From the NCBI GenBank assembly GCA_018831195.1, contig JAHJDP010000032.1:1-64000 (forward strand): DNA of 64,000 nucleotides. Reading direction: 5' to 3'. The notes under the pieces are model-generated. The model made no database searches, had not been told where the DNA came from, and saw only the letters and a program-made list of their open reading frames with translations. Position numbers and translations under genes: made by a program. Numbering within the stretch: the stretch's first letter is position 1; every line of letters begins with the position of its first letter. Source of the DNA: Candidatus Eisenbacteria bacterium (GTDB taxonomy: Bacteria > Eisenbacteria > RBG-16-71-46 > CAIMUX01 > JAHJDP01). Positions 19,264 through 32,902 of the stretch are shown piece by piece.

Positions 19264-19620
19264 ATGGCGAAAGCCAGGCGTAAAGCTACGAAGAAGGCAA
19301 CAAAGAAGAAAGTCACTCGCCGTAAAGTGGCGAAAAAAGTGACCAAGAAAAAAGTGGCGAAAAGAAAAGTCACTAAAAGGAAAGTCGCGAAAAGAAAGGT
19401 GACCAAGAAGAAGGCCACCAAGAAGAAAGCGACCAAAAGAAAGGTGACCAGGAAGAAGGCCACTAGAAAAAAGGCGACCAAGAAGAAGGCTACTCGCAAG
19501 AAGGCTACTCGCAAGAAGGCCACAAAGAAGAAGGCCACTCGCAAGAAAGCGCCTCGCAGGAAGAAAGCCCGAGCCAAGGCGTCTGTGGAAACCCCGCCGC
19601 TATTCGGTGAAGGACTCTGA
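19264..19620 (+). CDS. Histone H1-like Lys/Arg-Ala-Thr repeat protein
   Basis: A 118-residue, extremely basic, low-complexity protein built from about 19 copies of a five-residue unit (KKATK, KRKVT, RKKAT variants) with a short non-repetitive end (SVETPPLFGEGL). Such (K/R)-K-A/V-T repeats resemble the C-terminal tail of eukaryotic H1 and bacterial H1-like proteins (Hc1/HctB, AlgP tail), which bind and condense DNA without a folded domain. Here the whole protein is tail. It follows the receiver gene by seven bases and shares the sigma-54 promoter. A nucleoid-compaction role is inferred. Confidence 0.8.
   Translation: MAKARRKATKKATKKKVTRRKVAKKVTKKKVAKRKVTKRKVAKRKVTKKKATKKKATKRKVTRKKATRKKATKKKATRKKATRKKATKKKATRKKAPRRKKARAKASVETPPLFGEGL
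19276..19565 (+). repeat. 15-bp coding tandem repeat
   Basis: The histone-like gene is built from a degenerate 15-base unit of the form aagaaggcyacy with AAG/AAA/CGC codon changes, repeated about 19 times. The frame is kept throughout, so copy-number change by slippage would alter length without frameshift. Confidence 0.75.
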
Positions 19621-22712: not shown

Positions 22713-22742
22713 CGATTCTGAAGGGATCTGTATCAGATCCGC

Positions 22743-24764
22743 CTATTTTATAAGAACCAACTTGGTTTTGACCTCTCCATCCATGCTCTGCAACTTGGCG
22801 AAGTAGATCCCCGGTGTAACGGAACGACCGTGATCATCACGCCCATCCCATACGACCTGGTTCATGCCGACAGGACGAAGGCCGTCAATCAGCGTTCTCA
22901 CCCGGCGTCCAGAGACATCCATCAAGGCCAGGCTGACCGGTCCCTTGGCCGCTTCATTGGAAAGACTGAAGCTGAGCCGGGCCTGTGACACGGCGGGGTT
23001 CGGTCGGGTATGGAACAAACGGGTCGCGCTCGGTACGGCATCCGTCTCAACATCAGCCGTTATGGGAGCGTCCACCAGCCAGTTAATAACCTTTAGGATG
23101 AAGATCGAGCTATCATTCGGTATGGGCGATTCATTCTCCATCGCCAACTGCATGATGCTCGAGAAGACCGTCCGGCCCAATCCAGGGATCTCATTCCGCA
23201 GAACATTGGATTCGCCCAATTCGTTGGCGGCGACCGTCGCGGCATAGGGTCCCGGATTAATCGTATCGGCGCGGTTGAGAGAAGCGAATGGCCAGTCGAG
23301 AGTATAATGGAGGCCATTGCCGATCGGATCACCCGGCGTCCCGATCATTTCACTCGCTTGGGAATTGACAGCGAAGGTACTCACGCCGAAGTAATCTTCG
23401 AAGAATGGTTCGAGAGTTGAACCCACCAGGCAGTCCATCGAACTCAGAAAGAGATTTCCGCCATTGTCCAAGTAGGCCATGATGGCGGCCTTATCATCAC
23501 TGTTCAATGGAAGGACAACCCAAGCCGTCTGCCAGATGACAACATCGTAGCCGTTCATATCGCCAAAGGTCGGCGTCGCATTGCCGTGGTCGCCGTTGAC
23601 ATCCCAGAAATCATAGAAGAAACCATTCAATTCCAAAGCCTGAATGAACGGCTGCTCCGTCGGGTAATCAATGGCATAGCCGCCGTCATCATCCACCATG
23701 AGAACGGAGTAGGAACCGTTGATGACGCGGAGTGACATCGGCTGCATCCGGCCGCTGTTGTTTGATGAGGCTGCAAATGTGCCGAATCCTTCACGGACCT
23801 CACCATCGGTTTGGACGCGGATCGTGACTTCGACTTCTTCGGCGGGATCGAGAGCGACACTGGTCGAGGTGTACCAAGTTGCGTCACCCTCAATCTGGAA
23901 ATCGGCCGACCAACCGTCAAAGATTGCATCAATCGAGAGATCGATATTGTCGGCGACGGTGCCGATATTCTCGAGAGTTCCGGAAAAGATCGCTTCACCA
24001 TCGCCCAAGGGGACCGATTTCATCCGGATCGGGATCGTAAGAGCAAAGTCTTGAACCTGGCTCAGGAACCCCGTCTGAATGATTGCTCTGCCGGCATTGT
24101 GCTCTTGCAATATAACAACGCCGTGGAGATGGCTTGGATCCACACCGTAGGGAAGATTTACTTCGACCACGGCGGTGGCGACATCGTTCACATCCGTCAG
24201 CGTGATAGGGGCGCTGCCGAACGCCACGACACCGTTGCCATAGGTCCCGAAATTGTCTTGATAGACAAAGAAGTCAGCCTCGGTATTATTGAGCGTTACA
24301 GGATCCAGAAGTTCGAACGTGGCTTGAACATAACCAACATCACCCACCGGCGCGAAGTAGCCGTTGGTGATTTCCACCGGGCTCACGCCGCCGGTATTGG
24401 TCATCCGGGTGACATATCTTGTCCGGTAATTTGAATAAGCGGATGTGCAACTGCTGGCGCCGGTGACGGTATACATTCCGTCAATCTTAACGTCAGGGAT
24501 ACCACTCACACTATACCAAGAGGCGCGTGCATTGACTTCAGGGAGCTCATAATCATCGCCGACATGCAAATCGAGCCAAAAGAAGGTATCAGGAAACTCA
24601 TTTTGTAAGGTTTCTAGCCCGCACCGGGCGTCAGGACAGTATCCTCACCAGGTGGCGCCGTATTCCTCGCCGAGAATGATCTTGGGAACACCGGCCAGGA
24701 CCGGGCTTCCCAAGGCGAAGAGGAATGCGACCAACAGCATCAAGACATTCCGGGTCAAACGCAT
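22743..24764 (-). CDS. Exported thioredoxin-fold protein with in-frame TGA (probable selenoprotein), FlgD-like C-terminus
   Basis: A 673-residue protein if the TGA at 24647-24645 (codon 40) is read as selenocysteine. ATG 24764 follows GGAGGAGACAG and starts a clear signal peptide (MRLTRNVLMLLVAFLFALGS). Right after cleavage the frame reads EEYGATW-[TGA]-GYCPDARCGLE. The TGA thus replaces the first Cys of a thioredoxin-type CxxC, giving UxxC. The frame stays coherent after it, with Trx-like LDLHVGDDY and WYSVSGIPDVKIDG (cis-Pro loop). Later parts are beta-rich domains, a GATase/ThuA-like domain (VLMVDDDGGYA) and a C-terminal FlgD Ig-like domain. A hairpin just after the TGA fits a bacterial SECIS. 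Alternatives are a nonsense mutation, or a start after the TGA, which would lack a signal peptide. A periplasmic or surface thiol/disulfide role is inferred. Confidence 0.78.
24606..24647 (-). promoter_or_regulatory. SECIS-like hairpin at the in-frame TGA
   Basis: On the mRNA, UGAGG at the stop codon can pair with CCUUA (24610-24606). Above it GCCC pairs with GGGC around a GGUGC loop (or GCCCG/CGGGC around GUG). The loop begins 19 bases after the UGA with GGU, within the spacing and loop rules known for bacterial SECIS elements. Confidence 0.6.
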
Positions 24765-24869
24765 CTGTCTCCTCCTATGATATATTGTTGCGGGATGTCC
24801 ACAGATATCTCATCGGCGAGGGATAAAGCCGAAGCCCCATCCATCCCGTTTCCCCATTACTACCTATAA

Positions 24870-28327: not shown

Positions 28328-29575
28328 ATGAGTCTTTTTGCCATCTTCGCTTTATTGATGACGATAACGGCTCTATTCAGTTTTTTAAACGAACGGTGGT
28401 TCAAGTTGCCAACAACCATCGGGGTCATGGTCGCTTCATTGTTAGCTTCCATTATACTTATTATCCTCAGCAGGCTCGGTCTCAATGCTTCAGGATGGGC
28501 TTTTTCCATTCTTCAACGGATAGACTTCAATGCCCTATTAATGAAAGGAATGCTGAGTTTTCTTTTGTTTGCCGGGGCGCTGCATTTGGATCTCGATTCG
28601 CTCCTGGATAGACGATGGAGTATTCTGACACTGGCAACGGTGGGGGTCCTGATTTCGACTTTTATGATCGGAACGGCATCCTGGCTCATCTTTAATGCAA
28701 TCGGTTTGGAAGTCCCATTTGTCTATGCATTATTATTCGGCGCCCTCATATCACCGACTGACCCCATCGCCGTTCTAGGGCTGCTGAAAAGAGCCAAGAT
28801 GCCGGGAACGCTCGAAACGATGATTACCGGAGAATCCCTGTTTAATGATGGTGTTGGAGTGGTTGTCTTTACCCTGGTTTTAGGATTTATAGCCGGTGGG
28901 CATGAAATGTCCTTGTGGGAGACCGGAAAATTGTTTTTTGTGGAGGCCATCGGCGGCGTGATTTACGGCATACTCCTCGGCCTACTTGGTTACCTTTTCC
29001 TCAAGAGCGTAGATAATTATAAAGTCGAAGCTCTGCTGAGTCTGGCGCTTGTAACTGGAGGATATGCTCTGGCTGGTTTTCTGCATACATCCGGCCCCAT
29101 CGCAATGGTCGTGGCCGGGTTATTTATTGGGAACCGTGGCCGGGCTTTCGCGATGTCGGATAAAACAAGGGAGCGATTGGATGACTTTTGGGAGCTGATG
29201 GACGAGATTCTCAATGCTCTTCTTTTTGTCATGATCGGTTTGGAAGTCCTGGTCCTGGATTTGATGCGGCCCTATTTTGTTGCGGGCTTCCTTCTCATCC
29301 CCACCGTCTTGATATCGAGGTTTTTCAGTGTCGGCATACCATTGTCGTTGCTGCGGTATTATAAAGCCCCGCCCCCGTACACGATTCGTATCATGACATG
29401 GGGAGGACTTCGCGGGGGTGTTTCGATCGCGCTCGCTCTATCACTGCCCCTGTCTCCGCAGAGGGGATTGATATTAATGTCCACATATATCATCGTTATT
29501 TTCGCAATACTTGTACAGGGGCTGACATTCGGGCGGTTGGCCCGATGGGTGTCGGCAAAAATACCGAGTGTTTGA
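28328..29575 (+). CDS. Na+/H+ antiporter, CPA1 (NhaP) family
   Basis: A 415-residue inner-membrane protein with about 12 helices. The CPA1 ion-site motifs are present: ALISPTDPIAVLGLLK and the catalytic ND pair in GESLFNDGVGVVVFTLVLGF. GGLRGGVSIALALSLP in helix 10-11 is also conserved in the family. It exchanges cytoplasmic Na+ (or K+) for protons. AAGGAG precedes the ATG. It lacks the long cytoplasmic C-terminal domain of some NhaP proteins. The glycyl-radical activase starts 16 bases after it, so co-transcription is possible though a functional link is not evident. Confidence 0.92.
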   Translation: MSLFAIFALLMTITALFSFLNERWFKLPTTIGVMVASLLASIILIILSRLGLNASGWAFSILQRIDFNALLMKGMLSFLLFAGALHLDLDSLLDRRWSILTLATVGVLISTFMIGTASWLIFNAIGLEVPFVYALLFGALISPTDPIAVLGLLKRAKMPGTLETMITGESLFNDGVGVVVFTLVLGFIAGGHEMSLWETGKLFFVEAIGGVIYGILLGLLGYLFLKSVDNYKVEALLSLALVTGGYALAGFLHTSGPIAMVVAGLFIGNRGRAFAMSDKTRERLDDFWELMDEILNALLFVMIGLEVLVLDLMRPYFVAGFLLIPTVLISRFFSVGIPLSLLRYYKAPPPYTIRIMTWGGLRGGVSIALALSLPLSPQRGLILMSTYIIVIFAILVQGLTFGRLARWVSAKIPSV

Positions 29576-29591
29576 AAAGCAGAAGCTGGAT

Positions 29592-30491
29592 ATGACAGGC
29601 ACTTGTTTTGATATAAAGCGATATGCGATCCATGACGGCCCGGGAATTCGTACCACTGTTTTCCTCAAAGGATGTCCTCTCGATTGCCCCTGGTGTCATA
29701 ACCCTGAGGGGAAGAGCCGCGAGCGGGAAATCCTCCTTATTCCGGACCGTTGTATTGAATGCGGTGCCTGTCTGGAGGTATGTCCGACTTCCTCTATCGT
29801 TAGAAAAGGGGATACCATTGAAACGCAAACCCGCCTCTGCACTCAATGCGGACAATGCGTTGAAGTATGCCCCTCTGAAGCGAGGAGACACATTGGATGG
29901 GAGATCTCGGTGCCGGAACTGATGAATCGCATTCTACGGGATCGTCCTTTTTTTGAGGAATCCAATGGAGGCGTCACCTTCTCGGGAGGTGAGCCGTTTT
30001 ATCAACCTGAATTTCTCCTTGCCTGTCTGGCATCCTGCCGTGAGCATGGGCTGCATACCGCGGTCGATACCAGCGGCTTTGTCGCCAAAAGCGTTCTGAT
30101 GGATTCAGCACCTCTGATCGATCTCTATCTTTTTGACTTAAAGACCGCAAATGATGAGTGTCATCGGTCCTGGACCGGCGTATCGGTCATACCGATTCTT
30201 GAGAATCTTCGGATATTGGATGAAATGGACAATGAGGTATGGATCCGGATTCCACTGATACCCGGTCTCAATGACGATGCGCCAGCTCTCGCTTCCTTGG
30301 GGGAATTCCTGCTCTCATTGAAAAGAAAACATCCCATTACCATCCTGCCCTATCACATGGTAGGCTCTGATAAGGCGAGGCGATTACTAGGATCCATGAA
30401 ATCCTTCAGGCAATTCGAACACCCTTCAATTGAAACAATCCGCCGCATGAGGGATCATTTGGCCTCCCTGGGTTTGGATCTTCAGTTTTGA
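29592..30491 (+). CDS. Glycyl radical enzyme activating protein (radical SAM)
   Basis: A 299-residue radical SAM enzyme that abstracts a hydrogen from the glycine of its partner to start catalysis. The radical SAM cluster motif is CPLDCPWCHNPEG (CxxxCxxC). Two extra ferredoxin-type 4Fe-4S motifs follow, CIECGACLEVCP and CTQCGQCVEVCP, as in activases of dehydratase-type partners rather than pyruvate formate-lyase itself. SGGEPFYQPEF is the SAM-binding GGE. ATG 29592 (MTGTCFDIKRYAIHDGPG) matches the family start; a GTG at 29568 overlaps the antiporter end. Its partner is encoded 50 bases downstream. Oxygen sensitivity of both proteins indicates anaerobic growth. Confidence 0.93.
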   Translation: MTGTCFDIKRYAIHDGPGIRTTVFLKGCPLDCPWCHNPEGKSREREILLIPDRCIECGACLEVCPTSSIVRKGDTIETQTRLCTQCGQCVEVCPSEARRHIGWEISVPELMNRILRDRPFFEESNGGVTFSGGEPFYQPEFLLACLASCREHGLHTAVDTSGFVAKSVLMDSAPLIDLYLFDLKTANDECHRSWTGVSVIPILENLRILDEMDNEVWIRIPLIPGLNDDAPALASLGEFLLSLKRKHPITILPYHMVGSDKARRLLGSMKSFRQFEHPSIETIRRMRDHLASLGLDLQF

Positions 30492-30541
30492 ATATTCGGG
30501 TTCGACATTGTGGTTGAATTAGAAAAGGATCTCCTGATTCC

Positions 30542-32902
30542 ATGAATTCGAGGATTCAAAGATTGCGTGAGCAAAGCCTCTCATCAAAACCGATTCTATC
30601 AACCGAACGGGCGGAATTGTTGACCCGGTTTTATCGAGATAACATCGATAAATATCCGACGCCTATCCTGCGCGCCCTTTCCTTTAAGTACCTTTGTGAA
30701 CACAAAGTAATCTATATCGGAGAAGAGGAGTTGATAGTCGGGGAAAGGGGGCCGGAACCCAAGGCCACACCCACCTATCCAGAATTGACATGCCATAGTA
30801 TTGAAGATTTGAGGATCCTTAACAGCAGGAGCCGGACTGATTACGGCGTCTCCATCGAATCGATATCCATCTATGAGAATGAGATCATTCCTTTCTGGAG
30901 GGGGCGAAGCCTCAGAGATCAGATTTTCAATGAACTGCCGCGGGATTGGGTGCTGTCTTACGAGGCGGGGATTTTTACAGAATTCATGGAGCAAAGAGCC
31001 CCGGGACACACCGTTGCTGATGGGAAAATCTATCTGAAGGGGATGAACGACTTTAAAGCCGACATCAAAGAAGTATTGGAGAAGCTGCATTTCATAGAGG
31101 ATCCCTTGGCGCTTCAAAAAAAAGTTCAGCTTCAGGCCATGATCATCGCTGCGGATGCGGTGATCCTTTTTGCGCGGCGACATGCCGACCTCGCCCAAAG
31201 ATTAGCGGAACGGGAAATCGATCCGCATAGAAAACAGGAGCTGGAGAAAATCCGGGAGACTTGTCTCCGTGTGCCGGCGGCTCCTCCCAGGGATTTTTGG
31301 GAGGCGCTCCAAATGTACTGGTTCTGTCATTTGGCTGTTATTACGGAACTTAATGGGTGGGATTCTTTCTGCCCCGGTCATCTGGATCAACACCTCGAAC
31401 CCTTCTATCAGAATGGGTTGCATGATGAAGTCATTTCAAGAGAAGAGGCCAAGGAGCTTCTGCAGAGCTTCTTCATCAAGTTCAACAACCACCCCGCGCC
31501 CCCGAAGGTCGGTGTTACGGCCGCCGAAAGCGGGACCTACACCGATTTCACAAATATAAACCTGGCAGGCTTGAGGAAGGACGGCTCCAGCGGTGTCGGT
31601 GAGGTTTCCTATCTTCTGTTGGAAGTCATCGATGAGCTGCATATTCTCCAACCTGGCCAGAATGTTCAGATTTCCGGGGAAACTCAGACTGAGTTTCTTC
31701 ATGAAGCTTGCCGGGTGATCAGGAAGGGGTACGGATTCCCTTCCGTTTTCAATGCCGATATGATCGTCAAAGAGTTGATACGCCAGGGAAAAGAAGTGGA
31801 GGATGCCCGCGAAGGAGGGGCCAGCGGTTGCGTCGAGGCGGGCGCCTTCGGCAAAGAAGCCTATATTCTGACCGGTTATCTCAATCTTCCCAAGATCTTG
31901 GAAGTGACCCTCCATGACGGTCTGGATCCCGGAACAGGAATCCAATTGGGGCCCGAAACCGGCGCGCCGGAGGATTTTAAGACATTTCAAGATCTGTTTC
32001 AGGCTTGGGAAATGCAGCTTCATCATTTTATTGATGTAAAGATGCGCGGGAACCTGCTCATCGAGCGGATCTATGCAGAGCGGATGCCGGCGCCGTTTCT
32101 CTCTTTGATCACGGATGATTGTATAAAGAAGGGAATGGACTACAACGAAGGGGGCGCTCGATACAATACGAGTTACATCCAAGGCGTCGGCATCGGGACA
32201 TTGACCGACAGCTTCGCCGCCATCAAGTGGATTGTCTATGACAAAAGAATCCTGACACTTGCGGATCTTCTCACCGCGACGGACGCTGACTTTGAAGGAA
32301 AAGAAGAACTCCGCCGGCTCCTCCGGAATAAATCCCCCAAATGGGGGAATGATGATGACAGCGCGGATGAAATCATGCGTGCGGCCTTTGACGCTTTTTT
32401 TGCGGCGGTCGACGGACGTCCGAATCTACGCGGAGGCACGTATCACATTAATATGTTGCCGACGACCTGCCACATCTATTTCGGGTCGGTAACCGGCGCG
32501 ACGCCGGACGGGCGGAGGGCTGCGGAAGCCCTTTCTGAAGGGATCTCTCCCGTACAAGGCATGGATCGCCACGGACCGACGGCGGTGCTGCTGTCCGCGG
32601 CGAAGATGGAGCATGTCAGGACCGGCGGCACGCTGTTGAATATGAAGTTTCTTCCCCATGTTCTCGAAGGCGAGGATGGATTGAAGAAGCTGGCTGCACT
32701 CATTCGAACTTACTTCAGGCTCGGAGGGCATCACATCCAATTTAATGTTGTCGATGAGAAGATTCTCCGACAAGCTCAGGTGTCGCCGGAAGAATACCGG
32801 GACTTGATTGTTCGCGTCGCCGGCTACAGCGATTACTTTTGTGATCTTTCCGAATCGCTTCAGGATGAGATCATTTCTCGAACGGCCCAGTCGGCCCATT
32901 AG
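30542..32902 (+). CDS. Glycyl radical enzyme, 4-hydroxyproline-dehydratase-like
   Basis: A 786-residue glycyl radical enzyme. The thiyl-radical cysteine is Cys430 in GASGCVEAG and the glycyl radical site is Gly761 in RVAGYSDYF near the C-terminus. Sequence features along the whole length (EFMEQRAPGHTV, QMYWF, WVKF-like FIKFNNHPAPPKVG, GGARYNTSYIQGVGIGT, LPTTCHIYFG, GHHIQFNV) recall trans-4-hydroxy-L-proline dehydratases, which make pyrroline-5-carboxylate. As I remember that enzyme, residues next to the Cys loop differ (here VEAGAFGKE), so the substrate is uncertain. No pyrroline-carboxylate reductase lies next to it. It is cotranscribed with its activase, and hypF starts nine bases after its stop. 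Confidence 0.88.
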   Translation: MNSRIQRLREQSLSSKPILSTERAELLTRFYRDNIDKYPTPILRALSFKYLCEHKVIYIGEEELIVGERGPEPKATPTYPELTCHSIEDLRILNSRSRTDYGVSIESISIYENEIIPFWRGRSLRDQIFNELPRDWVLSYEAGIFTEFMEQRAPGHTVADGKIYLKGMNDFKADIKEVLEKLHFIEDPLALQKKVQLQAMIIAADAVILFARRHADLAQRLAEREIDPHRKQELEKIRETCLRVPAAPPRDFWEALQMYWFCHLAVITELNGWDSFCPGHLDQHLEPFYQNGLHDEVISREEAKELLQSFFIKFNNHPAPPKVGVTAAESGTYTDFTNINLAGLRKDGSSGVGEVSYLLLEVIDELHILQPGQNVQISGETQTEFLHEACRVIRKGYGFPSVFNADMIVKELIRQGKEVEDAREGGASGCVEAGAFGKEAYILTGYLNLPKILEVTLHDGLDPGTGIQLGPETGAPEDFKTFQDLFQAWEMQLHHFIDVKMRGNLLIERIYAERMPAPFLSLITDDCIKKGMDYNEGGARYNTSYIQGVGIGTLTDSFAAIKWIVYDKRILTLADLLTATDADFEGKEELRRLLRNKSPKWGNDDDSADEIMRAAFDAFFAAVDGRPNLRGGTYHINMLPTTCHIYFGSVTGATPDGRRAAEALSEGISPVQGMDRHGPTAVLLSAAKMEHVRTGGTLLNMKFLPHVLEGEDGLKKLAALIRTYFRLGGHHIQFNVVDEKILRQAQVSPEEYRDLIVRVAGYSDYFCDLSESLQDEIISRTAQSAH

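Follow-up and report, generated by a model that had tools for sequence, protein, structure and literature searches.

The 64,000-nt stretch of DNA analysed here (the window) carries, on its minus strand, a 673-codon frame that is interrupted by one TGA and very probably encodes an exported thioredoxin (Trx)-fold selenoprotein (Table 1). A preliminary description of the locus, silent on strand, had proposed a strong ribosome-binding site, a signal peptide, an in-frame TGA exactly at the position of the first redox cysteine and a coherent continuation of 633 residues, and each of these features is present. The reading runs from the ATG at 24764 to 22743; AGGAGG precedes the ATG by 6 nt, the TGA is codon 40 within GEEYGATW-U-GYCPDARCGL (active-site motif ATW-U-GYC), and after codon 40, 633 codons stay open to the TAG at 22743-22745, giving 673 amino acids with selenocysteine (Sec). 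Without Sec, the product would be a 39-residue scrap and a long remainder that, as had also been pointed out, has no signal peptide; the list of open reading frames begins this downstream part at a TTG within the Trx domain.

When the window was scanned for a further read-through frame, one weak, unrelated candidate was all that emerged. The neighbours of the gene are an MFS-type transporter (by inspection) and a tRNA gene, with no redox partner gene adjoining. Directly past the TAG, at 22724-22740, lies a perfect 7-bp inverted repeat (GGATCTG-TAT-CAGATCC) with a T-rich tail on its plus-strand side only. Elsewhere in the window, 19264-19620 on the plus strand encodes a 118-residue protein of repeated lysine/alanine-rich units, resembling a histone H1-like tail, and 29568-32902 holds, by inspection, a glycyl-radical-enzyme-like gene beside a likely activating radical-SAM enzyme, a pair that suggests anaerobic life.

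Table 1 Features of the predicted selenoprotein gene (window coordinates)
Feature	Position	Strand	Remarks
Predicted selenoprotein gene, 673 codons, stop TAG	22743..24764	minus	TGA at codon 40 predicted to be read as Sec
Ribosome-binding site AGGAGG	24771..24776	minus	6 nt ahead of ATG; from sequence
Signal peptide (MRLTRNVLMLLVAFLFALGSPVLA, then G), residues 1-24	24693..24764	minus	By eye: positive start, hydrophobic core, VLA cleavage box
Predicted Sec codon TGA, codon 40	24645..24647	minus	25 TGA / 14 TGC across 39 homologous sites
SECIS-like hairpin GCCCG-GUG-CGGGC	24617..24629	minus	Loop begins 20 nt past UGA; -8.4 kcal/mol
Thioredoxin-fold domain, ~residues 25-120	24405..24692	minus	U40, C43 (UxxC), cis-Pro90, extra pair C48/C106
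Middle, residues 121-566	23067..24404	minus	Omp28/HBP35-like to ~residue 240, then part without family name
C-terminal FlgD_ig / T9SS-sorting-like domain, residues 588-673	22746..23003	minus	FlgD_ig 2.5e-8; TIGR04183 3.4e-4

Protein architecture

The N-termini of homologues are hydrophobic like that of the window protein, in which no lipobox was seen. Against the PDB, a profile of the Trx domain matched the thioredoxins 1nho (8e-8) and 1fo5 (2e-7) and also HBP35 (5y1a); the single sequence falls below the Pfam Thioredoxin cut-off (13.1 vs 23.5). Positions invariant in an alignment of 18 members include the Sec/Cys site, C43, R80 and Pro90, the last of these bearing out the cis-Pro loop recognized earlier. 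C48 and C106 occur together in 19 genes, are jointly missing from 20 and never stand singly, and they probably pair as a second disulfide. An alignment-free structure prediction of the Trx domain was unusable (pLDDT 33.8). No Pfam family name applies to residues 342-564, a stretch also seen in other large proteins of the class. The FlgD-like end that had been noted corresponds to a FlgD_ig match at residues 594-663, above the Pfam cut-off, and this tail is present in 15 of 15 homologues.

Conservation of the redox-site codon

We searched residues 1-566 against 47 genomes of the same phylum and recovered homologues over most of this length, many with exactly one in-frame TGA. Their redox sites, located by the Trx-domain profile, provide the comparison at codon 40 that the preliminary description had called for: across 39 distinct genes in 12 genomes, 25 carry TGA and 14 carry TGC, and none has TAA, TAG or any other codon at the site. 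All but one of these genes (38 of 39) belong to the same order (genomes G000-G010), the exception being a TGC gene in G015. The frame downstream of the TGA is conserved for >500 amino acids. The genome that holds the window has a TGC paralogue of its own (motif ATWCGYCPDA; L019/L060), and G010 has a tandem pair (L055) of which one member carries TGA and the other TGC. With the site column left out of tree building, the TGA/TGC label changes at least 5 times (3 changes being forced by well-supported branches), compared with 11.7 changes when labels are shuffled. Judged from the sequences, such a distribution is to be expected of a Sec/Cys family and not of errors.

Tandem homologues were observed at L055 (G010:C172), L049 (G008:C143) and L040 (G005:C278). 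More distant groups with TGA in the same Trx domain comprise L089 and L130 (TATWUGYC), L091-L093 (KFG...UPFC/UPNC) and L094 and L095 (EYFTSTTUGGC). These lack the hairpin of the main subfamily, as well as C48 and C106, and probably represent additional Sec subfamilies, each using a SECIS form of its own. One relative (G006:C172:9794-10459; L075, L098) contains a single TAA inside the stretch matched by the protein family model NF045500, and its redox site is TGC. Beyond the phylum, a search of genome contigs returned only a match to the FlgD-type tail, in a Bacteroidetes genome.

A SECIS-like hairpin under codon constraint

The bacterial SECIS (bSECIS) model describes a loop of 3-9 nt with G in the first two loop positions, a stem of 4-16 bp, a distance of 16-37 nt from the UGA and an energy <= -7.5 (PMC13188914). 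The hairpin downstream of codon 40 agrees with every point, with a 3-nt loop (GUG), a 5-bp stem, a distance of 20 nt and -8.4 kcal/mol. It overlies the A-R-C-G codons, and its pairing is partly forced by the protein sequence; for this reason, we tested the stem by recoding these codons synonymously according to the usage of each gene (5000 draws). The complete 5-bp stem occurs in 14 of the 19 main-subfamily TGA genes (1.8 +/- 1.3 expected; the highest draw gave 8). In 18 of 19, the loop G comes from a codon whose third base is G (8.8 expected). Both figures are somewhat flattering, as the specific stem was picked after the sequences had been viewed. The Ala codon, too, follows its partner codon in its third base, with C or T opposite GGN and G opposite GCN; L120 (GGC, which pairs in another register) and L091 are exceptions. 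In the two TGC genes that share the motif, the stem is preserved and the loop codon is CGC instead of CGG. Taken alone, the hairpin of the window gene is unremarkable in energy (z -1.16 vs shuffles), and its support comes from the cross-gene comparison. Synonymous recoding applied to overall folding energy gave a weak signal (mean z -0.75, with 4 of 25 below p 0.05), since pairing is inherent in the protein motif. The codon patterns indicate that the stem in the main subfamily is maintained by synonymous codon choice.

Decoding of the in-frame TGA

The search for selA, selB, selC and selD that had been suggested as a check recovered complete Sec machinery in the same genome: tRNA-Sec (68.4 bits; Rfam cut-off 47), called by ARAGORN as well (tRNA-SeC, tca anticodon), SelA (509 bits; cut-off 268), SelB (348.8 bits; cut-off 242) and SelD (366.7 bits; cut-off 125). 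This SelD (L069, G000:C61:21734-22666) carries a TGA inside its own frame, within CAGUAAK, and is itself a selenoprotein. Across the phylum, tRNA-Sec was detected in 39 of 47 genomes, including 8 of the 11 genomes of the order; at the threshold used it was missing from G003 and G009, which are incomplete drafts, and from G004, which is rated complete and consists of 370 contigs. TGA ends 16 of the 35 long open reading frames in the window and is the commonest ordinary stop, and the genome has thus not simply reassigned it.

Two readings would dispense with Sec. Were the TGA a true stop, the gene would be a pseudogene, or an ordinary CxxC protein carrying a sequencing or assembly error; TGA is one base from TGC and TGT, and metagenome-assembled genomes contain errors. 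Against this stand the recurrence of the TGA in 25 distinct genes, which span several families and include tandem copies, the long conserved frame behind it, the absence of TAA and TAG at the site and the synonymous constraint on the downstream codons, which together make a stop or error vanishingly improbable. The comparison with homologues, through its 25 TGA genes, rules out sequencing error, and a chance open frame is ruled out by the 25 of 39 homologous sites that have TGA at the same codon, the others all having TGC. The TGA might instead be decoded as Trp, Cys or Gly, through a changed code or leaky suppression, and an open frame by itself would not discriminate between these and Sec. 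We nevertheless regard another amino acid as highly improbable, given that the alternative codon at the site always specifies Cys (14 of 14), that the genome has the complete Sec machinery together with a Sec-containing SelD, that a SECIS-like hairpin is there, and that TGA serves as a terminator in the window; a recoded genome is rejected on the last count. Sec at codon 40 remains our reading.

Export and the type IX secretion system

A match to FlgD_ig alone is no proof of export by the type IX secretion system (T9SS). The T9SS sorting model TIGR04183 scores 20.6 bits on the window protein, just under its cut-off of 23, and matches 11 of the 15 homologues; a profile of the tail matches the C-terminal domain of PorU (6za2, 2.4e-4). 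The same genome encodes SprA, above cut-off (548 bits over the frame), and PorU (550 bits; cut-off 420). SprA is above cut-off in 38 of the 47 genomes, which marks the T9SS as general in the phylum and does not alone tie it to the selenoprotein family. About 150 places in the genome match the query, nearly all through the FlgD-like C-terminal domain alone, and these constitute a putative large set of T9SS cargo. On balance, we favour a route in which the FlgD-like tail directs the selenoprotein through the T9SS, and consider it fairly likely.

The selenoprotein could also stay in the periplasm, with the FlgD-like domain acting as a structural Ig-like module and not as a T9SS signal. The best score of the tail is to FlgD_ig, with the sorting model narrowly missed, and T9SS function in the phylum is a prediction; the TIGR04183 matches among homologues, the likeness to PorU, the many tail-only matches in the genome and the presence of SprA and PorU point the other way, leaving periplasmic retention a doubtful but serious contender. 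In a further reading, to which we give little credence, the Trx domain would not be a thiol enzyme and would act in adhesion or in the binding of heme or metal, roles put forward for Omp28 and HBP35, and Sec would be a ligand. A Sec that occupies the attacking position of UxxC, together with a conserved cis-Pro, argues against this, being how such redox sites are usually arranged. The reading draws on HBP35 (5y1a), a hemin binder (PMC2907840) that aligns colinearly, as a distant relative, with residues 18-237 (E 1.2e-6, full-length profile); HBP35, however, has thioredoxin activity too, which needs both cysteines (PMC2907840).

For Sec insertion, export, reaction, substrate and cell location we infer a model in which SelB and Sec-tRNA-Sec would decode UGA 40, aided by the hairpin whose loop lies 20 nt on, and the signal peptide would take the protein out of the cytoplasm. 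The FlgD-like domain would most likely send it on through the T9SS, and the Sec site would act either in the periplasm or at, or beyond, the cell surface. There, away from the cytoplasm, the U40 selenol would attack a disulfide or some other oxidised substrate and C43 would resolve the intermediate, the reaction being thiol/selenol-disulfide exchange or the reduction of another oxidised substrate; C48-C106 would be the second disulfide. To the broader proposal, that a T9SS-secreted selenoprotein family, often multi-copy, forms a surface or extracellular Sec redox system in this uncultured order, we assign an even chance.

If the T9SS route is true, Sec translation would be linked with type IX secretion; the open PMC literature yielded no relevant paper combining the two. 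Annotation pipelines would tend to yield a 39-residue scrap and a protein without a signal peptide, so that a multi-copy exported redox family will likely be overlooked or misread in the order. The mixed TGA/TGC family, with its tandem pair, offers a natural system for asking when Sec repays its cost outside the cytoplasm.

Relation to known selenoproteins and surface thioredoxins

Precedents for Sec outside the cytoplasm include periplasmic formate dehydrogenase-N and NiFeSe hydrogenase, and DsbA/DsbG-like selenoproteins are exported. The preliminary description had held exported selenoproteins of this kind to be rare: its reading of the protein as exported stands, and it is not unprecedented, since exported UxxC selenoproteins of the broad kind are known. 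DsbA/DsbG-like proteins are listed, with Trx and thiol:disulfide interchange proteins, among the Trx-type UxxC selenoproteins in which Sec replaces the first redox Cys (PMC13188914, Table 1). The window protein shares with them the Trx fold and the position of Sec; it differs in being a large multi-domain selenoprotein with a sorting-like tail that scores under the Thioredoxin Pfam cut-off.

The nearest named family is NF045500, 'Omp28-related selenoprotein', identified in a 2026 review as GOS_C from the Global Ocean Sampling survey (PMC13188914, Table 1); GOS_C comprised 74 Sec and 312 Cys sequences with a Trx-like fold, UxxC and no function known (PMC2398784). NF045500 matches residues 30-180 of the selenoprotein (3.9e-11) and 15 of 15 homologues (best 4.8e-21), in keeping with the shared Trx-like fold and UxxC. 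The score of the selenoprotein, however, is 42.9 bits against a curated cut-off of 200, the best in the phylum is 68.8 (47 genomes, none of which passes), and the long forms described here add a large second half and the FlgD-like tail. As all members lie far under the cut-off, we file them as a divergent subfamily related to GOS_C/Omp28 and not as members of NF045500. Of the earlier label 'probable new selenoprotein', the selenocysteine is thus upheld and a wholly unknown family is not.

Two families with established names lie further off. Omp28 models match some homologues (PF11551 in 4 of 15, NF033782 in 10 of 15; E <= 0.01), whereas the selenoprotein is below both cut-offs (12.8 of 150 bits for NF033782) and lacks the lipobox, NF033782 being a lipoprotein family. 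HBP35 of Porphyromonas gingivalis is a surface protein with thioredoxin activity that is secreted by the T9SS (PorSS) (PMC2907840, PMC3120885). It is colinear with the selenoprotein across the Trx domain and the domain that follows, but it has Cys where the selenoprotein has Sec, is shorter and matches distantly, at the profile level only. The window gene is thus very probably a new branch of an already known, little-studied group of secreted UxxC selenoproteins; the novelty lies in a divergent subfamily, present in multiple copies within one uncultured order, in its SECIS and in its probable secretion by the T9SS.
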